64,000 bases of DNA. Origin: Leisingera aquaemixtae. Lineage in GTDB: Bacteria; Pseudomonadota; Alphaproteobacteria; Rhodobacterales; Rhodobacteraceae. The stretch spans positions 62,001-126,000 of the forward strand of contig NZ_CYSR01000031.1 in NCBI RefSeq assembly GCF_001458395.1, written 5' to 3'. A program made the translations under genes and the position numbers. This document shows, in pieces, positions 34,499 through 54,884 of this stretch (the first letter of the stretch is position 1; each line of letters starts with the position of its first letter). Below the pieces are notes generated by a model. It was given only the letters and a program-made list of their open reading frames with translations. It made no database searches and was not told the origin of the DNA.

Positions 34499-34819
34499 TC
34501 AGATCGACTCTTCGATCCAGCTCTGCAGCGCGGCCTTGGGGGCGGCGCCTGCGCGGTTCGAGATCACCTGGCCGTCCTTGAAGATGAACAGCGCCGGGAT
34601 ACCGCGCACGCCCATGGCAGCGGCGGCGTTCGGGTTGCTGTCCACGTCGACCTTGGCAATTTTCACCTTGCCGTCGAATTCCACGGCCAGCTCTTCCAGA
34701 GCCGGGCCAATCTGCTTACAGGGACCGCACCACTCAGCCCAGAAATCCACCACAACGGGGATGTCGGAGTTCTTGACTTCGGCGTCAAAAGTGGCGTCGG
34801 TGACGGCAACGGTGGACAT
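34499..34819 (-). CDS. trxA: thioredoxin
   Basis: Thioredoxin reduces protein disulfides in the cytoplasm. The 106-residue protein has the active site WCGPC at residues 30-34, the preceding VVVDFWAEW strand, the [20 protein letters not shown] segment with the cis-proline, and [16 protein letters not shown] at 34819 with a GGAG site gives the usual N-terminus; an upstream start adds nine residues. It follows addA by 62 bases in the same direction, a gene order shared with other alphaproteobacteria. Confidence 0.97.
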
Positions 34820-34881
34820 ATGAATGTCTCCATGAGTGTGTGGCAACTGGAGTCGGAACCTAGGTACGGCTTAACCGATCG

Positions 34882-37800
34882 TCAAGGTTCCAACTGCCGC
34901 TTCAATGCCGCAGTCACAAGGTCGTGCGGCAGCGGCATCAGGGTTGCGGTACGGGTCCAGAGCAGTGCGGTTTCGATAGTGCGGCCCGGATAGATCAGAG
35001 CCAGCGCATGGGCATAGGCCCCCATCTGCCGCAACAGGCCTTCGGGGCATTGTTCAGGCGTTGCGGGCACGGTGGCGTTCGATTTGAAATCCACCGCGAG
35101 GACCGTTTCCGGTGTGACGATCAGCCGGTCGATGACGCCATGCAGGCGGGCGCCGTTCAGGTCAGCGGTGACAGGAACCTCGGCCAGTGTATCCGGGTGA
35201 AAAACATCTGCCAGAGCGGCATTCCGCAGTACTGCGGAGGCCTCGGCCAGCAGTTCCGCACAGTCGCCTGCCCCTTGCAGCAAGTTTTGCGCCAGCTGCG
35301 GCCAGTCTGCGCCAGCCCGTCCCGGCAGATGCTCCAGAAGCAGGTGCAGCCGGCTGCCGCGGGCCTTTGCTGCCTTCTCATCAAGCCCCTGATCGCCCGG
35401 CAGCGCTTTGGCTCCGCCCAGGTCGGACGGGCTGAGCGCTGGCGCCGGCGCTGCATAGGCTCTGGCAGAGCGGGTGAAGACCTCCGGCAGATCATGTTTC
35501 ACAACTTCCTGTGCTTCGGGCACGACCAGCGGCGGGCCGTCCCAATCGCCATGCTGCAGCCGCAGGCCGGTGCCGCCTTCCGCGTCGAATTCCACCGCGC
35601 CGCCGTCGCGCATCGCACGCTCGGTCAGCCGGTACCAGCTGTCGCCCTGCTCACCGACCTCGCCGGCAGCAGCGACGATCAGCCACTTCTCCGCCCGGGT
35701 CAGGGCCACATACAACAGCCTCAGCCGTTCGTTCTGCAGCTTCTCCTGCGCGGTTTCGCGGGCCGCCAGCATGGCGGGCGGCATCTGGTCCTTGGGCAGC
35801 TTCCAGACCGGGGTGCCATCGGCCAGCATGATCTCTGCATCCCGCGGAGCCTGCCGTTTGGCAGTGTCAGGCAAAATCACGATCGGCGCTTCCAGCCCCT
35901 TGGAGCCATGCACCGACATCACCCGGATCATGTTGCCTGCCGCGCCCATCTGGCGTTTGATCTCCAGATCATCGGTCTGCATCCAGACCAGAAAGCCGGT
36001 GAGGCTGGGGACATCGGTGCGCTCATAGGCCAGCGCCTGCGACAGCAGCGCGTTGATGCCGTCCTCAGCCTCCGGTCCCAGCCGGCCCAGCAGTTTTTGC
36101 CGGCCGCCATGACGGGTCAGAATGCGTTCGATCAGGTCGTAGGGGCGCAGGAAGTCGGCGTTGGCGCGCAGGTCGTTCAGCACGGCCATGGTTTCGGGGA
36201 ACTCCCCTGCCCGGTCGCGCAATGCCGACCACAGGTACATCGCCTCCCGCCGGTGCGCGAGGTCGAACAGCGCCTGCTCCGTCCAGCCAAAGAGGGGCGA
36301 TTTCAGCGCCTCCGCGAGCGACAGAGAATCTTCGGGCAAAGCAAGGAACCGCAGCAGCGCCGCGATATCCTTGACGGCCAGTTCTGCGCCCACCTTCAGC
36401 CGGTCGGCGCCGGCGATGGGCAGTTCGGCTTTCTTGCAGGCACGGATGATTTCCGAGAACAGATCGGACCGGCGCTGCACCAGGATCAGGAAGTCGCCGG
36501 CCTGCACCGGGCGGCGCTGAAAGGTGCCCCGTTCCGGGCCGTCCTCGGGGATGGTGACGCCGGTGCCGATCATCCGTTTGATCGAACGCGCAATGCGCTC
36601 CGCCAGGATCACAGTGTGGTGGCGGCTGCTGGGGCGGTCCACCGGGCTGGTCCAGTCGGGGTCCTCGTCATCCTCGACCTTGCCGACCACCGGCCACAGA
36701 TCCACCCGGCCCGGCAGGTCGGATTTAAACGCTTGGTGCAGCGCGTCCTTGCGGAATCCTGCCCGCGGGCTGTCGCGAAACACCAGATCCACCAGTTTCA
36801 GGATCGCGGCGGAGGAGCGGAAGGAAAAGTCGAGCGAAGCATCCTGCAGCCCTGCTCCGGTTTCCGCCAGCCGGTTGCCGAACTCCTGCTGCATCCGGTC
36901 GAACGCATCCGGGTCGGCGCCCTGAAAAGAATAGATCGACTGCTTCTTGTCGCCGACCACAAAGATCGTGCGCTCCACGTCGGACCGCGCGCCTTCGCCG
37001 GCGGTGAATTCCTGCGCCAGCTTTTCGATCACGTCCCATTGCACCGGGCTGGTATCCTGCGCCTCGTCCACCAGGATGTGGTCGATGCCGCCATCCAGGC
37101 GGTAGAGCACCCAAGCGGCAACGCCCGGATCGTTCAGCAGCTGGCGCGCCTTCAGGATCAGGTCGTCGAAGTCGAGCCAGCCGCGCAGCTGCTTGCGGCG
37201 CTCGTATTCCGGCAGGAAGGCGGCGGCAAAACGGTGCAGGTCGTGACTCTTGCGCGCTGCCGTCAGCGCCAGGCGTTTTGCCCGCGCATCCTCAACCCGC
37301 CGCATCAGCGGTTCCAGTTGATCCATCAGGGACAGGTGGGATTCGCGCAGTTTCTTGGTCGGGAACTTGTCTATTTTGGCTGTGAAAGGCTCCTTGGCGC
37401 TGGCGCCAGTCAGAAACACGCTTTCAAATGTCCCCAGGTCGGCAAGCGCGGGTTTGGTGATGCCAGCCAGCTTGGCCGCGGCCTTTAGGTCGGTCGAACC
37501 GCCCTGCCCCAGCATCTCGCGGGTGCGCTGCAGCAGCTCTTCCTCGCCGCCCAGAAACACCAGCGCTTCCAGTGCAGTCTCGTCAAAACCTTCGGGGAGC
37601 CCGAACAGCTCCAGAAGCTGGGCCCAGTCCAGTGGGTCACCGAAATCAGCGCGGCGCTGGCAGATGGCAGAGGTGAGCGTCTCAAAATCACTGTCGCTGA
37701 CTTGCCGTGCCAGGGCATCGAGCTGAGGCGCTTGCGGGCCCTGGGCAAAGTCCTCCATGATCTCCGCCCGCAGCAGCTGGCCTGCGCGGTCGTCCATCTC

Positions 37801-38235
37801 GGCAAACTGGGGGCTGACGCCGGCCTCCAGCGGGAACCGGCGCAGCAGTGAGGAACAGAAGGAATGGATGGTTTGAATCTTCAACCCGCCCGGTGTCTCG
37901 ATCGCACGGGCGAACAGGGTGCGCGCCTGCGCCAAATCCTCAGCCGTGGTGCTGACTTCTCCCAGTTCGGTCAGCGCGGCGGTCAGCGCCGCATCCCCAA
38001 GCATCGCCCATTCCCCCAGCCGTTTGAACAGCCGGTTTTGCATCTCGCTGGCGGCGGCCTTGGTGTAGGTGAGGCACAGGATGTGCTGCGGCTGCACGCC
38101 CTTCAGCAACAGCCGTGCCACCCGGTCGGTCAGCACTTTGGTCTTGCCAGAGCCTGCATTGGCGGCCAGCCAAGTAGAAGCATCAGGGCGCGCAGCCCTG
38201 AACTGCGCCTCAGAGGCGGCATCGCGGATGGTCAT
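34882..38235 (-). CDS. addA: double-strand break repair helicase AddA
   Basis: AddA is the UvrD-like helicase and nuclease subunit of AddAB, which resects DNA ends for RecA loading. The 1117-residue protein has Walker A ANAGSGKT at 25-32, LTYTKAAA, the Walker B DEAQDTSPVQW near residue 390, helicase motifs such as VGDKKQSIYSFQGAD, and the C-terminal RecB-like nuclease with AVDFKSNA near residue 1060. The ATG overlaps the addB stop (ATGA) and has GGAGGATC upstream. The open frame extends 13 codons further without an SD. Confidence 0.96.
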   Translation of the reverse strand: MTIRDAASEAQFRAARPDASTWLAANAGSGKTKVLTDRVARLLLKGVQPQHILCLTYTKAAASEMQNRLFKRLGEWAMLGDAALTAALTELGEVSTTAEDLAQARTLFARAIETPGGLKIQTIHSFCSSLLRRFPLEAGVSPQFAEMDDRAGQLLRAEIMEDFAQGPQAPQLDALARQVSDSDFETLTSAICQRRADFGDPLDWAQLLELFGLPEGFDETALEALVFLGGEEELLQRTREMLGQGGSTDLKAAAKLAGITKPALADLGTFESVFLTGASAKEPFTAKIDKFPTKKLRESHLSLMDQLEPLMRRVEDARAKRLALTAARKSHDLHRFAAAFLPEYERRKQLRGWLDFDDLILKARQLLNDPGVAAWVLYRLDGGIDHILVDEAQDTSPVQWDVIEKLAQEFTAGEGARSDVERTIFVVGDKKQSIYSFQGADPDAFDRMQQEFGNRLAETGAGLQDASLDFSFRSSAAILKLVDLVFRDSPRAGFRKDALHQAFKSDLPGRVDLWPVVGKVEDDEDPDWTSPVDRPSSRHHTVILAERIARSIKRMIGTGVTIPEDGPERGTFQRRPVQAGDFLILVQRRSDLFSEIIRACKKAELPIAGADRLKVGAELAVKDIAALLRFLALPEDSLSLAEALKSPLFGWTEQALFDLAHRREAMYLWSALRDRAGEFPETMAVLNDLRANADFLRPYDLIERILTRHGGRQKLLGRLGPEAEDGINALLSQALAYERTDVPSLTGFLVWMQTDDLEIKRQMGAAGNMIRVMSVHGSKGLEAPIVILPDTAKRQAPRDAEIMLADGTPVWKLPKDQMPPAMLAARETAQEKLQNERLRLLYVALTRAEKWLIVAAAGEVGEQGDSWYRLTERAMRDGGAVEFDAEGGTGLRLQHGDWDGPPLVVPEAQEVVKHDLPEVFTRSARAYAAPAPALSPSDLGGAKALPGDQGLDEKAAKARGSRLHLLLEHLPGRAGADWPQLAQNLLQGAGDCAELLAEASAVLRNAALADVFHPDTLAEVPVTADLNGARLHGVIDRLIVTPETVLAVDFKSNATVPATPEQCPEGLLRQMGAYAHALALIYPGRTIETALLWTRTATLMPLPHDLVTAALKRQLEP

Positions 38236-41165
38236 GCCAGATCCTCCGGCTGCGGGGTGGCGCTGCGGTCCCATTCGCCGTAGCGCGCCAGGTGGTCGTA
38301 ATCGCCGGCGATGTCGTCCCGGTGCACCATGCGCCGGCTCGAATAGCCTTGGTCAGGCTCAAAATAGGCCGCGATAAGCGTGCGCAGCTCATCCCAGACC
38401 TTGGCTGGCGGCTCTGCCTCCAGCGGCGCCGGCACTTCGCTCAGTTTGCTGCCCAATCCTATGAACAAGGCACGCGCGACCTCCGCAGGGCCGAGGTCGT
38501 CGAAAGCGCCCTCTTCGGCCATGGCCGCTTCGATCAGCAGCTGTTTTTCGAATTTCTTCTGCTGTGCCTCGCTGGGCGGCGTGCCCGTCTTGTAGTCATA
38601 GAGGTGCAGAAATCCGCGGTCGTCCATGTCAATCCGGTCGGCGCGGCAGGCGATCGTGAAATCGAGCGGATCCAGCCGGGCGCTGCCCTTGGCCTCAAAG
38701 GCGACCGGTTTGGCGCGGGCCTGGCGCTCCTGCTCGGCCAGGACAAAGTCGCCGGCAATCTTGCGGATGCGGCTGTGCCACAGGATGCGGGCCACGGGCC
38801 AAGGCACGTGCGTCTCCAGCAGCTCCCGGGTTTTGCCGACCAGATGACCGGCGGTCAGCAGCGAGGGGTCGGCCTGCGTTTCCTTGATGAAATGCTCAAA
38901 CACCTCATGCACAACGATGCCGCGCAGCAGGGCGTCGGGTTCCTGCACCAGCGGGTTCAGCGGCCTCAAGCGCAGCACATGTTTAGCATAGATCGCATAA
39001 GGATCGCGGATCAGCCGCGGAATTTCGGTGATCGTCAGCCGCCGCGGGCGGGCGGCCACAGGCGGGCACGGGGACGGGCGGCGATATTGCGGAATCGGCG
39101 CCGGTTCTTCCAGCGCCTCCGCCCAGCCAAGCCACTGGCGGCCCTTGGCGCGCATGGTGTCCAGTGCCGCATGGCCGCCCTGATCCGGCAAGCCCGACAG
39201 CAGGTTGGTCAGCCTGTTCAGCCAGCGCGAGGGCACGGTATCGGCTTCCTCTGACCGTTCGGCGCGGGTCAGCCAGACCTCCGGCGCGGCGATGGCCTGC
39301 TGGAAATCATGCGCCGACAACCCGATGCGGCGTTCGGGCAGCAAGAGCCCGGCCTGATTTCGAAGCTGGCGGTTCAGCCAGGGATCGGGGGAAGCAGCCT
39401 CGGGCCAGCTGCCTTCGTTGAGGCCGCCAAGGATCACCAGATCAGCACCCTGCACACGCGCCTCCAGTGTGCCCCAGATCATAATCGAGCCATAAGGCGC
39501 ATCGCGGTCACGGACCTCACCCTGGCTCAGCAGCGCGCCCAGAAGATCGGCAAAGTCGCGGGCGGTCATATCGCCGCCATAAGGCGCCTCGGCCTCCAGG
39601 TTTTCGATGCAGGCGAGGGCGGCTTGACCGGCTTTCTTGTCCCACAGCGTGCCGGCGCCATCGGCCTGGCTGCCGGCGGCGATGTCTTCGGCCAGGCCGC
39701 GCAGACGCTGGACCCAGTTCGTCAGGGGAAGCGTGCCGGCAACCTCTTGATCCGCGAAACAGGATGACAGCCAACCGGTCCATCCCGGCGTCAGCTCACG
39801 GCCCTTTTCAAAGGCGGCAAAGGCGGCGGCATCCGGGAAAGGCGGGCCGTTGCGGCGCAGGGACAGTTCCAGCTCGCGCGTCTGGCGCAGATGGTTGCCG
39901 CGGTCCGCGCCGTCATGGGTGAGCGGGTGTTTCAGCAAAGTCAGCAGGCTGTCGCAGGCCAGCGGCTTGCAGAACAGCCCCGCCACATGGCGCAGGAAGC
40001 GGCCCGGCGGCGACAGCTGCAAGGGCTGGCCGGCGGAGTCATCGGGCAGAATGTCCCAGCGGTCCAGCGCCGCGGAGACCTGGCGGGTCAGCATCCGGTC
40101 CGGGGTGATCAGCGCCGCGGTCTGCCCGTCTTCGGCCGCCTGGCGCAGGCGCAATGCAATGGCGAGCGCCTCGGCACGGGGGCTGGGCGCCTCCACCAGG
40201 GTGAGGTTTTCGGTGGCCTCGCTCAACCCGGTCAGCAAGGGGCCTTCCCTCATCCAGGCATCGGTGACAGGGGCAGGGCGCAAGGCCAGCGAAACCAGCC
40301 GGTTGCGTTCGGGCGAGGCCGGCAGCGTTTCCGTCCAGGGCTGCACGTCGCCGGGTGTCAGCTCCAGATCCTTCATCAGCTTGTGGAAGCGGTACTGCGG
40401 GTGATCTTCCGAGATCATCGGATCATCCAGCCCGGCCCAGACATGATCCGGCTGGTCAAAGTCGAAGCCGGGCAGCACCACGGCCCCTTGCGGCAGCCGC
40501 GCGATGGCCTGCATCAGCATCAGCGTTGTGCCGCGCGATCCGGTGGAGCCGGCCAGGATCACCGGATGCTGCGGGGGCTTGTCCTGCCACTGTTCAATCA
40601 GATTCAGGACCACCTGCCGCTGCCGGGCCTGTGCATCCATCGCGCCCTCATGCAGGCCGGTGAATTCGTCGGCGATGCCGATAAAGGCCTGCGCGCGGGC
40701 CCAATGGCCCGACATGTCTGAGACATCCAGCGCGCGGATCGTATCGGTGCTGACGCCTTCGCCCTGCATCTCATCGATCAGCGCAGCCAGGCTGTCGGAC
40801 AGGTCATAAAGCGAGGCGCGGGAGGCGAGATCGGGTTGTGCGTCCAGAAGTTTCGCAATCAGCTGCGACAGTTCCAGACGGCGCCGCAGCGGGGGCAGGG
40901 CGGGCGGCAGGCCGTCCAGCGTGGCGCGTTGGGCCAGGTCGGTCAGCAGCATCATCCGCGGCAGCAGCATGGCCGGGCCGGTATCAAACAGGCCACGCAC
41001 CCGGCGCGCCATGCGGGAGGTGTTGACGATCAATTCAGCCCGCGCCAGCGCCTCCGGTGGCAGGCCCTGGCTGCGGCTGCGCAAGCCCTCAACCAGCGCA
41101 CGCGGGAAATCGGCGCCGCAGGGCACGGCAAACAGGCGCGGTTTGGCGGATGGTTCAAACATCAT
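38232..41165 (-). CDS. addB: double-strand break repair protein AddB
   Basis: AddB is the partner subunit that scans for Chi-like sequences and carries a second nuclease. The 977-residue protein has an inactivated helicase-like N-terminus (degenerate P-loop region), an ILAGSTGSRGTT segment near residue 205, and a C-terminal nuclease with LYDYKTGTPP near residue 880. The cysteines of the iron-sulfur version of AddB are not apparent, so this is the alphaproteobacterial type. Its ATG lies 11 bases inside the end of the nucleotidyltransferase gene; the second codon is also ATG. Confidence 0.93.
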   Translation of the reverse strand: MMFEPSAKPRLFAVPCGADFPRALVEGLRSRSQGLPPEALARAELIVNTSRMARRVRGLFDTGPAMLLPRMMLLTDLAQRATLDGLPPALPPLRRRLELSQLIAKLLDAQPDLASRASLYDLSDSLAALIDEMQGEGVSTDTIRALDVSDMSGHWARAQAFIGIADEFTGLHEGAMDAQARQRQVVLNLIEQWQDKPPQHPVILAGSTGSRGTTLMLMQAIARLPQGAVVLPGFDFDQPDHVWAGLDDPMISEDHPQYRFHKLMKDLELTPGDVQPWTETLPASPERNRLVSLALRPAPVTDAWMREGPLLTGLSEATENLTLVEAPSPRAEALAIALRLRQAAEDGQTAALITPDRMLTRQVSAALDRWDILPDDSAGQPLQLSPPGRFLRHVAGLFCKPLACDSLLTLLKHPLTHDGADRGNHLRQTRELELSLRRNGPPFPDAAAFAAFEKGRELTPGWTGWLSSCFADQEVAGTLPLTNWVQRLRGLAEDIAAGSQADGAGTLWDKKAGQAALACIENLEAEAPYGGDMTARDFADLLGALLSQGEVRDRDAPYGSIMIWGTLEARVQGADLVILGGLNEGSWPEAASPDPWLNRQLRNQAGLLLPERRIGLSAHDFQQAIAAPEVWLTRAERSEEADTVPSRWLNRLTNLLSGLPDQGGHAALDTMRAKGRQWLGWAEALEEPAPIPQYRRPSPCPPVAARPRRLTITEIPRLIRDPYAIYAKHVLRLRPLNPLVQEPDALLRGIVVHEVFEHFIKETQADPSLLTAGHLVGKTRELLETHVPWPVARILWHSRIRKIAGDFVLAEQERQARAKPVAFEAKGSARLDPLDFTIACRADRIDMDDRGFLHLYDYKTGTPPSEAQQKKFEKQLLIEAAMAEEGAFDDLGPAEVARALFIGLGSKLSEVPAPLEAEPPAKVWDELRTLIAAYFEPDQGYSSRRMVHRDDIAGDYDHLARYGEWDRSATPQPEDLA

Positions 41166-41847
41166 CAGCGGTTATCAGGTCCTCGGCCAGTGTGACCCCT
41201 TCGGGGCGCCCCACATCGCACCAGCGGCCGGGATATTCCAGCGCAAACAGCCGGCCTGCCGCGGCCATCTGATTCCAGAGTATGTTGAGCGAGAAAACCT
41301 TGTCCTCAACCTGGTGAAGCCTTTCCGTTTTCAGAATCTGCACTCCGCCATAGACCAGATCGCCGCCGCGGCTGATGCGCCCATCGGCATCCGTCGAGAA
41401 ATCGCCGCCGCCGGTGCGGCCGACGGCCCTGTCCAGTGGCACGCAGACCAACAGTGCATCCATGCGCGCCGGGTCCCAGGCCTCCTGCGCCAGATGCAGC
41501 GGGTTCGGGCCTTTCCAGATGGCGTCGGTGTTCATCGTGAAAACCGGGCCGTCCCCCAGCAGCGGCAGGGCCTGGCGCAGGCCGCCGCCGGTGTCGAGAA
41601 TGTCAGGTGTCTCCAGACTGAGGAGCACGTTTTCAGGCTCTAACAAGGCCTTCAGCGGTTCCGGCTTGTAATGCAGGTTGGCGGCGATCCGGGCCGGCTG
41701 GACCGCTTGGGCCAACTCTAGCGCGTGGGAGATCAGCGGCCTGCCTGCCACCTCGATCATCGGTTTCGGCTTGTCGCTGGTCAACTCCCGCATCCGGGTG
41801 CCAAACCCGGCGGCAAACAGCATGACAGCATCGGGGGAGCGCTGCAT
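41155..41847 (-). CDS. murU: nucleotidyltransferase, probable N-acetylmuramate-1-phosphate uridylyltransferase MurU
   Basis: A 230-residue NTP-transferase. The opening FAAGFGTRMRELTSDKPKPM is the sugar-phosphate nucleotidyltransferase signature, and the internal FTMNTDAIWKG holds the metal-binding aspartate. Its pairing with an aminoglycoside-phosphotransferase-like kinase is the arrangement of murU and amgK, which convert free MurNAc to UDP-MurNAc in peptidoglycan recycling. That assignment rests on family plus context; other sugars cannot be excluded. The start abuts the kinase stop directly. Confidence 0.78.
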   Translation of the reverse strand: MQRSPDAVMLFAAGFGTRMRELTSDKPKPMIEVAGRPLISHALELAQAVQPARIAANLHYKPEPLKALLEPENVLLSLETPDILDTGGGLRQALPLLGDGPVFTMNTDAIWKGPNPLHLAQEAWDPARMDALLVCVPLDRAVGRTGGGDFSTDADGRISRGGDLVYGGVQILKTERLHQVEDKVFSLNILWNQMAAAGRLFALEYPGRWCDVGRPEGVTLAEDLITADDV

Positions 41848-42845
41848 CAGGGCCTCAGCTTGTCCAGGTTTTCCGGGGTGGGGGCAGGCAGGCTCTCGCG
41901 CAGCAAAGCGCCGATCCGGGCCAGTGCCGGGTGCTCCAGCCCGCGGATGAAATGGTCCCAGACCCGCGGGATCAGATCCACGTAATGGGGTTTGCCGTAA
42001 TCCATGCTGAGCCGGGCAAAGACGCCGAGAATGCGCAGGTTCCGCTGCACGCCAAGCACGGTATAGGCGGTACGGAAGCCGGACTCATCAACGCCAGCCG
42101 CTGCGACGTAGCGGTCGATCATCTGCATTTCGATGCCGGCGGGCACGTCCCGGCGGGCATCCTGCAGCAGCGATACCAGATCATAGGCCGGATGGCCGGC
42201 GCGGGCGTCCTGAAAATCCAGAAGGCCGACACGGGCAACGCCCTTGCGGTCCGGCAGCCACAGAAGGTTTTCGGCGTGATAGTCGCGCTGTACCAGAACC
42301 GGATCGCCTTTCACGGTGGCGCGCAGGATGTCTTCGAACAGATCCTCGAACCGGGCCTGCAGGTCTGGATCCTGGCTGCCGGTGATGCCGGCGCGGTACT
42401 TCGACAACGCCAGCGCGGACATTTCCGCCATCATCCGCGGGCCGTAAGGTTCCAGATCCGGCATTGGTGCCTGGTGCAGTGTCACCAGCGCATCCGTCGC
42501 CGCCTCATACAGCTGCTTTTCCAAGGCCGGTTCGCGCCGGATAACCCGGGCATAAAGATCGTCGCCCAGATCCTCCAGCAGCAGGAAGCCGTGTTCGGCA
42601 TCCTGTTCCAGAATCTCCGGCGCGCTAAGGCCCTGCTTCCGCAGATATTCGGCAACGCGGATGAACGGACGGATGTCTTCGCCCTTTTCCGGCGGCGCGT
42701 CCATCAGCACCACTGTTTTGCCATCGGCACCTGTCAGCCGCTCATAGCGGCGGTTGGAGGCGTCGCCGGCGAGCGGGCCGCGCCGCCAGCAGGCATAAGG
42801 TGTTGCGGACAGGAAAGAGTCGCAAAGTTGATTGCGGTCGGTCAT
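41847..42845 (-). CDS. amgK: phosphotransferase, probable N-acetylmuramate/N-acetylglucosamine kinase AmgK
   Basis: A 332-residue APH-family kinase. The catalytic loop VQRDYHAENLLWLPD near residue 195 and the metal-binding LLDFQDARAG near 220 are clear. AmgK phosphorylates MurNAc and GlcNAc at the anomeric position, bypassing de novo synthesis and the fosfomycin-sensitive step. Next to murU this is the most likely role. ATG at 42845 overlaps the tsaE stop; a start ten codons upstream is less likely. Confidence 0.78.
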   Translation of the reverse strand: MTDRNQLCDSFLSATPYACWRRGPLAGDASNRRYERLTGADGKTVVLMDAPPEKGEDIRPFIRVAEYLRKQGLSAPEILEQDAEHGFLLLEDLGDDLYARVIRREPALEKQLYEAATDALVTLHQAPMPDLEPYGPRMMAEMSALALSKYRAGITGSQDPDLQARFEDLFEDILRATVKGDPVLVQRDYHAENLLWLPDRKGVARVGLLDFQDARAGHPAYDLVSLLQDARRDVPAGIEMQMIDRYVAAAGVDESGFRTAYTVLGVQRNLRILGVFARLSMDYGKPHYVDLIPRVWDHFIRGLEHPALARIGALLRESLPAPTPENLDKLRP

Positions 42846-43318
42846 GCGCTGATGCGCTCCATCAGGGGCTGCCATTTCTCATCGCTCCAGCGGAGCGTCA
42901 GATGGCGGCGGTCTTCGTGTTCGGGGTCCAGCGCCAGCGTCAGATGCAGGGCGTGGGCAGGCGTCAGCTCAGCCAGCCGGTCGGGCCATTCCACCAGGCA
43001 GATCGCGGAGTCAAACGCCTCGGTCAGGCCCAGCTCCTCCAGTTCGTCCAGTGAGGACAACCGGTAGAGATCGGTGTGCCACAGCTCGCCGGCGGGCACG
43101 TCATAGGTCTGCACCAGCGTGAAGGTGGGGGAGGGCACGTCTTCGGGCACCTCCATCAGCGATTGGATCAGGTGGCGGGCGAAATGGGTCTTGCCGGCGC
43201 CGACCACCCCCTCCAGCAGCAGGCAATCGCCGGGGCGCAGGGCCCCGGCGATTTGTGCGGCCAAGCGGGCCGTATCTTCCGGTGAGTTCAGCGTGCAGGC
43301 CGCGGTATGCGTGGTCAT
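42842..43318 (-). CDS. tsaE: tRNA threonylcarbamoyladenosine biosynthesis ATPase TsaE
   Basis: TsaE is the ATPase of the TsaBDE complex that makes t6A at position 37 of ANN-decoding tRNAs. The 158-residue protein has Walker A GVVGAGKT at 37-44, the PSPTFTLVQTYD motif, HTDLYRL near residue 80 and the LVEWPDRL segment. The open frame extends upstream, but ATG at 43318 gives the normal length. TsaD, its complex partner, is encoded at 53.8 kb. It starts 50 bases after the PAS protein gene and heads a tight run to addA. Confidence 0.94.
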   Translation of the reverse strand: MTTHTAACTLNSPEDTARLAAQIAGALRPGDCLLLEGVVGAGKTHFARHLIQSLMEVPEDVPSPTFTLVQTYDVPAGELWHTDLYRLSSLDELEELGLTEAFDSAICLVEWPDRLAELTPAHALHLTLALDPEHEDRRHLTLRWSDEKWQPLMERISA

Positions 43319-43367: not shown

Positions 43368-44915
43368 TCAACCCTGGGTGATGGCGGGGAAACGCTCCTG
43401 GCTCGCCGGCAGGGCGGCGGTTTCCGGCGGGCGGAAGCTGACCATGCTGGCACCGTTCTGGATCGCCGATACCTTGCAGATCAGCGGCGTGCCATCGCGC
43501 AACTGGACGCGGGACCACCAGGCCTCCCGCCCTTTGTAACCGGCAACAAAATCGCGGATCTCACCCCAGACGGGGGTCGGGGCGGCGGTATTCTGCCAGA
43601 CCCGGCTGGCATCCATAATTGATACTTTGGCAAAGCTCGCCTCAGGGTCCATCTGCCACAGGCTGCCATAGGCGGTGTTGCAGAAAGTCATGGTGCCGTC
43701 GCTGGCAAAGACTGCGATCGCCTCGTCCATCTGGTCCAGGATCGACTGCCCCATTTCCAGCTCTGAGCGGAACTGGCGGGTGAGGGTCACTTCGGCGGTG
43801 ATGTCCTCGAACAGGAAGGCGATGGCACCGTCCGGATGAGGGCGGCCAGACACCTTGTAGACGGAGCCCGACGGCAGCGACCAGGTTTCCTGGTACCGGC
43901 CTTCGGCAGCGGCTTCCAGCAGGTCGGCCATCTGGTGGCGCCAGCTGGAATAGCTTTTCGGTTCCGGCATCATCCGCTGATCGCGCAGGCGATCAAAGAA
44001 GGTCAGCAGGTTGGGCCGCGAGCTGAGGAAGTTGGCGGGCAGGGCGGTCAGGTCGATCAGAACCGGGTTGAACAGAACCAGCTGCCGGTTGCGGTCAAAG
44101 ATCGCGAGGCCAATCGACAGCTGCGCAAAGGTCTTGGCCAGCGTCTGGACAAAATTGCGCTGGGCCACCTCAGCATCGACCACAGCGTTCACGTCGACCG
44201 CATGGCACAGCCAGCCGGCCTCGGTTTCGGTGGTCGAGACGTTATACCACAGCTTTTTCTTGCTTTCCGGCAGCGGGATGGAGATCCGCTCAGGCTTGCC
44301 GCTGGTCATCGGGTCGTGCAGATCGGTGAACAGGGGGTCGGCAAAATCCGCGTTCCGGCCGCGGATTTTCTGGCTGAGGTTGTCATAGGCAAGGTTGGAC
44401 CAGGTGACGTTGCCCTCTTCCGATTGTAGCCAGACCGGGTAGGGCGCCTGATGCACCGCGGCGCGCAGGGTGGTCAGTTCCTGATCAAGGGATTTGTTCT
44501 GCTCCTCCAGGGCGCTGCGGCGCAGCTGCACCCGGGTCACCCCGTCAATCCATTCGCAATGCGCCTCGCGGCTTTCGGCAGCGGCAGTGCCGGACAGGAC
44601 CAGCGGGCCGACGTCCTTGAGGAAACCCGGCGATTGCGGCAGGCCCGGATAGCTGCGGGCCAGCTGATCGCGCAACATGCTCCAGTCAAAGTTTTCGGCC
44701 TGATCGCCAATGAACTTGCGCGCGCCGGAGGACCAGCCGATCAGGCTGTTGTCGTCAAACAGGAACACGGCATCGGTACGGCCATCGGTGGCCAGCAGGT
44801 CGTGCGCCATGCCGCGGCGGCGGGGCGTTGGCGACAGCCACCAAACCGCGGCGGCAGCCGTTGCAGCGCACAGCGCCGCCAGTACAAACCATTCGATCGA
44901 AGCGAAGTCCTGCAT
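43368..44915 (-). CDS. membrane-anchored PAS protein, DivL-like but lacking a kinase domain
   Basis: A 515-residue protein with one N-terminal membrane segment (about residues 9-27), a coiled-coil stretch near 135-150 (LEEQNKSLDQELTTLRAAV), and at least three PAS-type regions: near 155-230, 270-380 and 395-480. The last, ILDQMDEAIAVFASDGTMTFCN, is the clearest. After it the protein ends in about 25 unstructured residues; no dimerisation, histidine or ATPase domain follows, and tsaE begins 50 bases later. In Caulobacter, divL precedes tsaE, the APH kinase, the nucleotidyltransferase, addB and addA, so position suggests a DivL relative. It was probably a scaffold or sensor, not a kinase. Orthology is inference. 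Confidence 0.7.
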   Translation of the reverse strand: MQDFASIEWFVLAALCAATAAAAVWWLSPTPRRRGMAHDLLATDGRTDAVFLFDDNSLIGWSSGARKFIGDQAENFDWSMLRDQLARSYPGLPQSPGFLKDVGPLVLSGTAAAESREAHCEWIDGVTRVQLRRSALEEQNKSLDQELTTLRAAVHQAPYPVWLQSEEGNVTWSNLAYDNLSQKIRGRNADFADPLFTDLHDPMTSGKPERISIPLPESKKKLWYNVSTTETEAGWLCHAVDVNAVVDAEVAQRNFVQTLAKTFAQLSIGLAIFDRNRQLVLFNPVLIDLTALPANFLSSRPNLLTFFDRLRDQRMMPEPKSYSSWRHQMADLLEAAAEGRYQETWSLPSGSVYKVSGRPHPDGAIAFLFEDITAEVTLTRQFRSELEMGQSILDQMDEAIAVFASDGTMTFCNTAYGSLWQMDPEASFAKVSIMDASRVWQNTAAPTPVWGEIRDFVAGYKGREAWWSRVQLRDGTPLICKVSAIQNGASMVSFRPPETAALPASQERFPAITQG

Positions 44916-44967: not shown

Positions 44968-44982
44968 TTAAATGAAGTTTAA
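44968..44982. promoter_or_regulatory. perfect CtrA box upstream of the PAS/DivL-like gene
   Basis: TTAA-ATGAAGT-TTAA matches the CtrA consensus TTAA-N7-TTAA exactly. It lies 53-67 bases upstream of the PAS-protein start, a usual place for CtrA control, within an AT-rich 89-bp gap to regB. CtrA is known to be present and to control motility and related traits in Rhodobacterales. Confidence 0.6.
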
Positions 44983-45004: not shown

Positions 45005-46444
45005 TTAAATTTCTAAAGGTATATTTTTCCCAATGACAGGGCCGCCGTCCTCCATTGCGTCGATTTTTTTGCGCGGCCAGGCCACCTCGACAATGGCGCC
45101 GCGGCGTTCGCGGAAGGGGCTGAGGGTCTGGAACGGGTCAGTGCCATTCGCAAACCTCAGCTGGGCGCCGGTGCGCTGAAGCAGGGTTTTGGCGATGAAC
45201 AGCCCCAGCCCCATGCCTTCGTATTCCGGTCTCTGCTTCAATTCGCTTTCCCCGCGGCGTCTGCGCACGAAGGGGTCGCCGATCCGGCCCAGCAGCTGCG
45301 GCGGGAAGCCCTGGCCGTCATCGCAAATGCGCAGGATGATCCGGTCGTCGTTCCAGGCTGCATCAATCCAGACGGTGGACCGGGCAAAATCGACGGCGTT
45401 TTGCACCAGGTTGCGCAGACCGTGAATGATCTCGGGCTTTCGCAGCACGGTTGGCTGCTGGAAATCGCCGCCTTCCAGCGGTTCCTCATGATAGATGACC
45501 GTCTTGCCCCGGTTCATATGCGGCTCTGCGGCCTCGGTCACAAGGGTGGAAAACGGCGCTTGGCGCAAGTGCAGGTCGTCCTTGCCGGCCCGGCCCATGC
45601 TGCGCAGGATATCGCGGCAGCGGTCGGCCTGCTCGCGGATCAGGGCGGCGTCCTCGCGCAGGTCGGGGCGGTCGTCCAGTTCCTCGATCAGCTCGGCGCT
45701 GGCGAGCTTGATGGTGGCCAGGGGGGTGCCCAGCTCATGCGCCGCGGCCGCCACAACACCACCCAGATCGGTTAGTTTCTGTTCGCGCGACAGCGCCAGC
45801 TGGGTCGCGCTCAGCGCATCCGACATAGACCGCATCTCGTTACTGACACGGAAGGAGTAGGCGCCGATGAACAGGATGGCGATCACAATGGCGATCCAGT
45901 TGCCGAAAATAAACACATCAGGGATACGCAGGATAAAACCCTGTTCGGTCCGCAGCGGCAGGTGAAATTCGGCCATCAGCGTGACCAGGATAATAGCCGT
46001 GGCACCGATGATAAGGGTGGAGCGCAGACCCATCACCGCAGCGGAGATGGTGACCGGGCCCAGCACCAGCAGCGCAAAGGGGTTGTTCAGTCCGCCTGTC
46101 AGATACAGCAGGAAGGCCAGCTGCAGCAGGTCGAACAGGACCATCAGGAAATTCTCGAACTCTGTCAGGCGCTTGTTTTCCGGGAAGGCAAAGATGGCGA
46201 TCAGGTTGCCCGCCGCCGAAATGCCGATGGCCAGGTAGCACAATGCCAGCTCCAGCTGCAGGTTGAAGCGGTGCTGCGCCACCGCGATGGCGGTGATCTG
46301 CCCGGCAATCGCCACCCAGCGCAGCAGAATCAAGGTCCGCAGCCGGATCCAGTGGCTGTGCTCATGGCCGCTCATCAGCCTGAAAATGCGATCGCTCATA
46401 AGGTCCGCTGCTCCCGCAGATGTGACGCCGTGCGCCAGTTGCAT
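45005..46444 (-). CDS. regB: redox-sensing histidine kinase RegB (PrrB/ActS)
   Basis: RegB senses redox state and quinone pool and phosphorylates RegA, controlling photosynthesis, respiration, carbon and nitrogen fixation genes. The 479-residue protein has six hydrophobic spans, the quinone-binding GGLNNPF motif at 117-123, the H-box HELGTPLA with His236, and Cys276 exactly 40 residues later, the same spacing as the redox cysteine in Rhodobacter capsulatus RegB. The C-terminal ATPase has N, G1 (DDGQGFP) and G2 (GMGLGLFI) boxes. ATG at 46444 is used although no strong SD precedes it; starts at 46477 or 46399 are possible. Confidence 0.95.
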   Translation of the reverse strand: MQLAHGVTSAGAADLMSDRIFRLMSGHEHSHWIRLRTLILLRWVAIAGQITAIAVAQHRFNLQLELALCYLAIGISAAGNLIAIFAFPENKRLTEFENFLMVLFDLLQLAFLLYLTGGLNNPFALLVLGPVTISAAVMGLRSTLIIGATAIILVTLMAEFHLPLRTEQGFILRIPDVFIFGNWIAIVIAILFIGAYSFRVSNEMRSMSDALSATQLALSREQKLTDLGGVVAAAAHELGTPLATIKLASAELIEELDDRPDLREDAALIREQADRCRDILRSMGRAGKDDLHLRQAPFSTLVTEAAEPHMNRGKTVIYHEEPLEGGDFQQPTVLRKPEIIHGLRNLVQNAVDFARSTVWIDAAWNDDRIILRICDDGQGFPPQLLGRIGDPFVRRRRGESELKQRPEYEGMGLGLFIAKTLLQRTGAQLRFANGTDPFQTLSPFRERRGAIVEVAWPRKKIDAMEDGGPVIGKNIPLEI

Positions 46445-46515
46445 CGGCTGTATTTCTTGATAGGTCTGGCGCCGCAAACGTTCAACAATCCTTCCTTACC
46501 GAAAAGTGCAATCTC

Positions 46516-52827: not shown

Positions 52828-53790
52828 TTATTCCTCTTTTAACGGTCTTTTAAGTAAAAGAGCCGCCGCCTCGGAAATGGTCAAGCGCTGATCGAGCAAA
52901 TTGGTTACCGTCTGCGTGATCGGCATCTCCAGCTGCATCTTCCGGGCGTGTTCCGCCACCGCATGCGCAGTTGCGGCGCCTTCGACCGTGATAGAGGAAT
53001 CAAAGGCCTCGCCGCGCCCGATCGACAGGCCCAGCCGGTAGTTGCGGGACAGGTCTGATGTACAGGTCAGCGTCAGATCGCCAAACCCGGACAGCCCTGC
53101 CATCGTTTCGGCCTTGGCGCCGCAGGCCAGTGCCATGCGCTGCATCTCGGCATAACCCCGGGTCATCAGCGCGGCGCGGGCGCTGTCGCCCAGCCCGGCA
53201 CCAATCACCGCACCGCAGGCAATCGCCATAACATTTTTCAACGCCCCGCCCAGCTCTGCGCCGATGGTATCGGTGGTGCGGTAGAGGCGCAGGTTGGCAG
53301 TGGACAGCTGCTGCTGCAGCGCTTTGCCCAGGTCCGCGCCGCCGCAGGCCAGCGTTAGCGCGGTTGGCAGGCCGCGCGCGATATCCGCCGCAAAGCTCGG
53401 CCCGGTCAGCAGCGCCGCCGGGGATTCTGGCAGAACTTCCTGAATAACCGAGACCGGACCAAGCCCGGTGTGCAGCTCAATACCCTTGCAGCAGGCGACC
53501 AGGGTTTTCCCTGACAGATGCGCCTTGTGCTGTCGCAGGACGCTGCGCAGCTTTTGCATGGGCATCGCCAGCAGAAGAACCTCAGAGCTGCAGGCCTGCG
53601 CAATATCAGCAGTGGCGGTGAGGGTTTCCGGCAGGTCAGCACCGGGCAGCCGGACCTCATTCCGGCGGCTGTCCTGCATGGCTTTGGCGTGGTCTGTATC
53701 GCGCGCCCACAGCGTCACCGGCCCGTTGCCGGCCAGTGAAATCGCGAGCGCAGTGCCAAAGGCGCCGGACCCCAGAACAGAAACGCTCAT
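52828..53790 (-). CDS. gpsA: glycerol-3-phosphate dehydrogenase [NAD(P)+]
   Basis: GpsA makes sn-glycerol 3-phosphate from dihydroxyacetone phosphate for phospholipid synthesis. The 320-residue protein has the NAD-binding [14 protein letters not shown] loop at the N-terminus, the LVACCKGIE segment, the [11 protein letters not shown] motif, the catalytic lysine region [12 protein letters not shown], and GYAEM. The open frame extends far upstream inside tsaD, but ATG at 53790 overlaps the tsaD stop and gives the family N-terminus. Confidence 0.96.
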
Positions 53791-54884
53791 GCCTTGGCTC
53801 CTTTGCGGCCCGACCCGATCAGCGCCGGGCTGCTCTGGTCCAGCGGCCAGCGGGGGCGGGCGGTCAGGTCCAGACCATCGCGCGCACCGGATTTGAAACG
53901 CTCCAGCCCGGCATAGGCGATCATAGCAGCATTGTCGGTGCACAGGCGCAGCGGCGGCGCGGTGAAGGCGGCGCCAGCCTCGTCGCAAACAGTCTCTAAC
54001 GCGGCGCGAATGGCGGTATTTGCTGCAACACCGCCTGCAACGGCGACGGTCGGCGTCCCGGGCTGTTCTTCCAGATACAGGCGGAGGGCGCGGCGGGTTT
54101 TCTCTGCCAGCGTATCCACAACGGCAGCCTGAAATCCGGCACACAGATCGGCCCTGTCCTGGCGGGTCAGACCGCCTTTTTCCGCCACGATCTGATCGCG
54201 CATCCGCATCAGGGCGGTTTTCAGACCGGAGAACGACAGGTTGCAATCCGGCCGGTCCAGCAAAGGCCGCGGGAAGCGGAACCGCTTGGGATCACCGGTT
54301 TCGGCTTCGGCCTGCACCGACGGCCCGCCTGGCTGCGGCAGGCCCAGCAGGCGGGCGGTCTTGTCAAAGGCCTCGCCGGGGGCGTCGTCGATGGTGCCGC
54401 CCAGGCGGGTGAAATCCTCCGGCCCGCGCACCAGCAGGTACTGGCAATGCCCGCCGGAGACCAGCAGCATCAGATAAGGATAGGCAATCCCGTCGGTCAG
54501 CCGCGGAGTCAGCGCGTGGCCCGCCAGATGGTTGACCCCAATCAGCGGCAGGCCCGTCGCGGCGGCGATCCCCTTGGCGCACATCACGCCCGACATCACC
54601 CCGCCGATCAGCCCCGGGCCGGCGGTTACGGCGACAGCATCAATGTCCTTCAAACTTAATCCGGCCTCCGCCAGTGCATCGCGCACGCAGATGTCCAGCT
54701 TCTCGGCATGGGCGCGCGCGGCGATCTCCGGCACCACGCCGCCAAAGGCGCAGTGCAGCTCTGTCTGGCCGAATACGACTGAAGACAGAACCTCGGGCTG
54801 CGCGCCCCCGGCCTGCCGCACCACTGCGGCGGCAGTGTCGTCACAGCTGCTTTCCAGCCCCAGAATGGTCAGGGTCTTTGTCAT
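53787..54884 (-). CDS. tsaD: tRNA N6-threonylcarbamoyladenosine transferase TsaD
   Basis: TsaD is the catalytic subunit that transfers threonylcarbamoyl to A37 of tRNA. The 365-residue ASKHA-fold protein has the [13 protein letters not shown] opening, the metal-binding HLAGHAL motif near residue 112 with both histidines, VSGGHCQYL, and a C-terminal CTDNAAMIA motif. ATG at 54884 is preferred over a start 13 codons upstream. It is divergent from hemD across 74 bp, and the orientation is typical of Rhodobacteraceae. Confidence 0.96.

Follow-up and report, generated by a model that had tools for sequence, protein, structure and literature searches.

Kinase-less forms of DivL have been described from bacteria in which DivK is missing, as reported in excerpts of PMC2877005 (2010) and PMC4211667 (2014), and the portion of PMC9430884 (Vega-Baray 2022) that bears on the subject presents a short DivL, together with the missing DivK, as a common trait in Rhodobacterales. 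The same portion describes degenerate long DivL proteins in Oceanicella and Albimonas, and an excerpt of PMC4211667 gives a tyrosine at the phospho-acceptor position throughout DivL homologues, with one alanine exception. Among individual short forms, Dshi_3433 of D. shibae is assigned two PAS domains and R. capsulatus rcc00042 a single one in a section of PMC6473078 (2019), where a different protein, the PAS-kinase-receiver hybrid Dshi_3346, is also named DivL. According to a passage of PMC9143464 (2022), which cites a 2018 paper, R. capsulatus DivL promotes CtrA phosphorylation via CckA. A CtrA site at divL has been predicted for D. shibae.

The gene analysed here belongs with these proteins. 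As they are described in parts of PMC2877005, PMC9430884 and PMC6473078, the short DivL proteins of Rhodobacterales (R. capsulatus rcc00042, D. shibae Dshi_3433) share with it a PAS-only DivL orthologue that has no DHp-CA part, the missing DivK, a CckA-ChpT-CtrA pathway and a CtrA site at divL (predicted, in D. shibae). Comparing with R. capsulatus and D. shibae by description, we see no difference of substance and regard the window gene as the Leisingera-like member of this group. A pseudo-kinase that sheds its kinase fold yet keeps its signalling role provides a clean natural experiment, but one that has in outline been published; the architecture is already in print, as is the proposed mechanism, and the find is an ordinary one. 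What we add are modest refinements (a regB-linked ladder of forms, a nearly constant CtrA-type promoter box among near relatives and a histidine in eroded long forms), which would make the order of events easier to test.

The window, by which we mean the whole stretch of 64,000 nucleotides analysed, comes from a genome of 40 contigs rated 100% complete. It contains an intact reading frame with an ATG start for the 515-aa protein, in the following setting:

34499 to 34846, minus strand: trxA (thioredoxin, WCGPC motif), from an open reading frame and the motif by eye
34882 to 38274, minus strand: addA-like gene (UvrD-type helicase-nuclease)
38232 to 41165, minus strand: addB-like gene (PD-(D/E)XK nuclease)
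41155 to 41847, minus strand: murU-like nucleotidyltransferase gene; the best NCBIfam model is MurU, below its cut-off
41847 to 42875, minus strand: amgK-like kinase gene, whose true start may be internal; Pfam APH, the best NCBIfam model being AmgK, below its cut-off
42842 to 43318, minus strand: tsaE (Pfam TsaE, E 2.4e-36)
43368 to 44915, stop codon included, minus strand: short (kinase-less) divL, 515 aa
43431 to 43730, minus strand: PAS 4, residues about 396-495, complete and followed by a 20-residue tail and the stop (Pfam PAS_8/PAS at 387-425; AlphaFold)
43803 to 44120, minus strand: PAS 3, residues about 266-371, where conservation by pairwise identity is highest (Pfam PAS_7 at 264-376)
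44193 to 44447, minus strand: PAS-like module 2, residues about 157-241, by fold only (AlphaFold), outside the best Pfam stretch
44517 to 44771, minus strand: PAS-like module 1, residues about 49-133, by fold only (AlphaFold secondary structure), with no Pfam match
44835 to 44909, minus strand: predicted N-terminal membrane helix, residues 3-27 (AlphaFold helix, hydrophobic by eye)
44968 to 44982, no strand assigned: CtrA-type box TTAA-N7-TTAA in the 89 bases between regB and divL; it starts 53 bases before the divL ATG
45005 to 46477, minus strand: regB, a sensor kinase gene and the immediate upstream neighbour of divL (NCBIfam HisKinRegBRhodob, 788.7 bits, cut-off 570)

The preliminary description had read the gene order as PAS protein-tsaE-amgK-murU-addB-addA-trxA, which is correct within the window (trxA judged by its motif alone); on the far side of divL from tsaE are regB, senC and regA. 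It had also placed about 50 bases between the PAS gene and tsaE and held the kinase part to be absent, not frameshifted. Both statements stand. The divL stop codon is separated from the tsaE ATG at 43318 by 49 bases, which leaves no room for a decayed kinase, and the 515-aa protein contains neither HisKA nor HATPase_c by Pfam and no DHp helix in its predicted structure.

The same arrangement recurs among the relatives, for which we used the best 80 of 417 found by contig scan. The nearest of these are from Leisingera (92-94% identity), which makes this genus, or a very close one, the probable source of the window, and Phaeobacter italicus DivL is 83% identical to that of the window. A stop falls at codon 469-524 from the start of the match in 79 of the 80, and the remaining one (L205) runs off its contig. 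Upstream regB on the same strand and downstream tsaE are each present in 79/80, and amgK in 77/80; of the four loci that miss a neighbour, three are short cut loci and L209 is not. Because the short form and its neighbours are repeated across relatives, they are not an assembly artefact. A frameshifted or misassembled kinase was likewise rejected as a candidate, given the 49 bases to tsaE and the like ending of 79/80 relatives. L218, considered as a possible broken gene, has its stop at codon 502 of the 503 of its match and thus a natural end. One record in the set, titled Nocardioides marinus DP1N28-1 (L165), has a divL 90% identical to that of the window with regB, tsaE and amgK adjoining, and its organism name looks wrong.

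Pfam recognises two PAS regions above its cut-off in the protein, PAS_7 with its best stretch at E 1.4e-18 and PAS_8/PAS. The AlphaFold model, computed from a 38-sequence alignment (mean pLDDT 75.3, pTM 0.36), has the N-terminal helix followed by four PAS-like modules linked by helices, the two N-terminal modules being predictions from structure. PAS 4 closes with strands at 466-472, 477-484 and 490-495, after which the last 20 residues are mostly unstructured. Structure prediction, proposed earlier as a check on the PAS boundaries and on any residual DHp helix, therefore bounds four modules and places no DHp helix after the last of them. It also agrees with the earlier statements that the protein keeps a membrane anchor and several PAS regions and stops right after the last. 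Ranked by E-value, the Foldseek matches in the PDB are led by proteins with tandem PAS domains, PpsR, DosP and FixL among them; their TM-scores over the whole model are low (0.15-0.33 among the matches listed), as expected if the PAS modules are hinged.

Compared with the full-length DivL pseudo-kinase of Caulobacter (PDB 4Q20), the window protein is alike in its N-terminal helix and PAS array but lacks the DHp-CA part, and hence Tyr550 and the docking surface for DivK-phosphate. At 22 of the 356 positions in residues 140-495, short and long forms share a residue that is conserved to 85% or more in each, and 15 of these 22 lie in PAS 3. When the short protein or its alignment was searched against PDB sequences, no DivL was returned, probably because the PDB has only the DHp-CA part of it.

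The distribution of long and short forms was followed in two surveys. Among the 292 genomes of the order survey, all from the window's own family, the frames are mostly 500-560 aa (range 424-706 among the matches listed). In the class survey, 202 of 385 genomes match at E 1e-15 or better, and the matches outside the family, which may include other PAS kinases, have frames mostly of about 570-1100 aa among those listed, with a few shorter ones (330 with an internal stop, 453 and 556). From these genomes we assembled 18 long genes, 4 of the window's family and 14 of other families, eight of which were scanned with Pfam. The scanned genes from outside the family carry HisKA and HATPase_c above cut-off in four cases of four. 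The phospho-acceptor is a tyrosine in 13 of the 14 other-family proteins and a phenylalanine in the other, and in the fetched stretches around these 14 genes a strong tsaE match occurs in seven and an amgK match in seven.

Long forms within the family were found in 4 of 25 re-searched genomes (25 of the 292), namely G110, G227, G141 and G198, and there may be further ones beyond these. In all four, regB comes before divL and tsaE, amgK and murU come after it, so that the slot regB-divL-tsaE-amgK-murU is common to the window gene and the long DivLs of its family. The proteins of G110 and G227 (789 and 804 aa) and of G141 (740 aa) keep HisKA, with HATPase_c below the Pfam cut-off. In that of G198 (749 aa) Pfam recognises neither domain, and more than 200 residues remain after the last PAS. 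These four are perhaps of the same group as the Oceanicella and Albimonas forms which, as far as an excerpt of PMC9430884 describes them, have the same PAS part as the window protein but still carry a C-terminal kinase or its remnant. Intact, eroded, unrecognised and absent kinase forms thus all exist, and a single family has the last three of these in the same gene slot.

The long DivLs of G110, G227 and G141 (L119, L120, L122) have a histidine, not a tyrosine, as phospho-acceptor residue (SHRLRTPL, SHQMRTPL). Given the tyrosine reported throughout DivL homologues in the excerpt of PMC4211667, this is slightly unusual, and the sequences may reflect either a reversal to histidine or a different history.

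A phylogeny with DivL PAS regions had been proposed as a check on the identity of the window protein. In our tree of the PAS part, which has 45 rows and is drawn without non-DivL PAS proteins, the in-family long forms fall between the long forms of other families and most of the short forms, in keeping with the claim. The G198 protein stands beside four short forms with weak support (88/61). On this tree, kinase loss needs two changes of state, and one is also possible.

The promoter of the window gene carries the motif TTAA-N7-TTAA, which we take to be the CtrA consensus and which agrees with the CtrA site predicted for D. shibae divL. Two copies are observed in the window against 0.06 expected. 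For 74 of 79 relatives, the 80th not having enough sequence, the exact box lies no more than 150 bases upstream of divL, and none of 1545 control stretches drawn at random from these loci contains it. Five relatives lack the exact box: two carry a version with a single mismatch, and for three the match started 38-48 codons into the gene and did not extend to the promoter. The bases that follow the box are conserved too, as TTAACC(A/T)TT. The second copy in the window (52839-52853) lies inside the 3' end of a minus-strand open reading frame (52828-54246), not at its promoter.

In a wider gene set, from which repeats of one gene and two split genes were removed, the box occurs at 45 of 49 short genes versus 2 of 18 long ones, with the rows in each class related to one another and most short rows near relatives of the window. 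Before this removal, the counts were 45/55 short rows and 3/22 long rows. Among the 45, the box of L096 lies 40 bases inside the longest reading of its gene and that of L101 lies 168 bases upstream. Since kinase loss amounts to one or two events on the tree, its association with the box is backed by that number of events and not by 67 independent observations. The G198 gene, whose kinase is unrecognised, is one of the two long genes that have the box. With its unrecognised C-terminal part and its CtrA-type box, this gene (L121) has the appearance of a last step before the short form.

The rest of the circuit is present in the window's genome. We find CckA at G000:C30 (L012; PDB 5idj at E 2.7e-67 and 5idm, 'Cell cycle histidine kinase CckA', at E 3.8e-38), ChpT at C30:309113 and CtrA at C30:95226 (433.7 bits, cut-off 350). 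A query sequence for DivK, confirmed as DivK against the PDB, found no close DivK in the genome: it gave 21 matches at E 1e-6 or better, the best of them 34% identical in a 230-aa frame, and two small frames, one of 149 aa and one of 129 aa, are 27% and 24% identical to it.

The reading that we consider very probable is that this is the short DivL of Rhodobacterales, a DivL orthologue in its usual slot that has kept a membrane helix and four PAS modules, has wholly lost the DHp-CA pseudo-kinase and presumably acts on CckA. The membrane-bound PAS array would contact CckA and favour its kinase state, which would raise the level of CtrA phosphate. Input from DivK-phosphate, received in Caulobacter by the DHp-CA part, would be gone here, and CtrA probably sets the amount of DivL, which would close a loop. 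Control of CckA by the PAS domains alone, suggested in the preliminary description, would depend on the R. capsulatus work cited in PMC9143464.

An account that goes further, and that we hold to be unlikely, would tie the loss of the kinase fold to a change of input, with CtrA-driven divL transcription replacing DivK-phosphate. In some members of the family, the DHp part would then have passed through a stage with a histidine phospho-acceptor and an eroded ATPase, perhaps taking phosphate from another kinase, before it was lost.

It seems quite improbable that the protein, though descended from DivL, no longer works in the CckA pathway and has become a PAS scaffold or sensor for some other partner, such as RegB. 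Such a role would suit the regB gene found upstream on the same strand in nearly all relatives, but regB also adjoins the long DivLs of the family, and its linkage therefore does not follow from kinase loss. A screen of 13,000 transposon mutants of Phaeobacter inhibens for motility points in the same direction and also weighs against the favoured reading, in that it found cckA, chpT and ctrA, and the eight genes that it identified beyond the flagellar cluster do not include divL (PMC12363192); from this absence, DivL may contribute little to motility in that organism or be redundant for it. Against another partner, the CtrA-type box ties divL to the CtrA circuit, and the passage of PMC9143464 has R. 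capsulatus DivL work by way of CckA on CtrA phosphorylation. Also weighed against the favoured reading is the statement in PMC12363192 that, in P. inhibens mutants of ctrA and cckA, repression was seen only for 'divL1', a name that may or may not denote the counterpart of the window gene.

Very improbable, in our judgement, is a decaying relic, in which the whole DivL became dispensable after the loss of DivK and is drifting. Three of the 292 order genomes (G138, G232 and G251, rated 99-100% complete) gave no DivL match, and none again when re-searched; in G039 and G270 (L138, L137) the usual slot holds divL as two overlapping frames, through a frame change or a sequencing error. Yet a match to the DivL PAS part is kept in 289 of the 292, and the promoter box is conserved. 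The PAS modules themselves speak on both sides. PAS 3 has a mean pairwise identity of 0.506 in 27 short forms versus 0.426 in 18 long forms, which argues against drift, whereas PAS 4 stands at 0.296 versus 0.359 in the same sets and PAS 1 and PAS 2 are slightly less identical in short than in long forms, as a relic would lead one to expect. Within the 27 short forms, the modules other than PAS 3 have mean identities of 0.237-0.296. These values give a hint that constraint may have shifted to PAS 3 and relaxed elsewhere after kinase loss, in a comparison between short and long sets that differ in divergence.

Returning to the short DivL reading, its identity was approached from both directions. 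The window protein finds no counterpart in its own genome, the next match having an E-value of only 0.307. As a full-length query we used L127, a long DivL homologue of another family whose best PDB match is 4Q20, 'Sensor protein DivL' (181 bits versus 117 for the next). In the window's genome L127 gives 30 matches, of which the window gene is the first (E 5.7e-35), over residues 185-555, that is, the PAS part only. Of the other 29, 27 begin no earlier than residue 527, either in the kinase part or where the last PAS ends, and two begin earlier, L004 (451-797) and L011 (373-789). Judged by sequence, the window gene is a DivL orthologue without the kinase-like half. Two findings that could have overturned the preliminary description, a closer relationship to unrelated PAS proteins and a full-length DivL elsewhere in the genome, did not appear: among the proteins compared, the full-length query, the own-genome search and the slot shared with the in-family long DivLs all point to DivL, and L004 and L011 read as ordinary hybrid kinases.

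That an unrelated PAS protein sits in the divL slot by chance, or that an assembly artefact hides the kinase part, is extremely improbable: the low identity of the window protein to long DivLs (21-36% over matched stretches) and the likeness to DivL, over PAS and kinase, of hybrid kinases with PAS_7 such as L011 in the same genome would allow it, but the intermediate place of the in-family long forms in the PAS-part tree (which has no non-DivL PAS proteins) and the first rank of the window gene for a full-length DivL query count against the former, and the same short form in 79/80 relatives, the 80th being cut off, refutes the latter.

Both hybrid kinases were rejected as a second DivL. The nearest thing to one is L011 (G000:C22, 734 aa), which has two PAS_7 domains, HisKA, HATPase_c and a receiver and is 23-27% identical to long DivLs over PAS and kinase. 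It has a histidine at the phospho-acceptor site (SHDLLQPL), and 4Q20 is not its best PDB match but the 17th, at 64 bits versus 77 for the first. L004 (G000:C40, 839 aa) combines PAS, HisKA, HATPase_c and a receiver, also with a histidine at the site, and matches DivL only from residue 451; its layout is the one that one paper gives for Dshi_3346.
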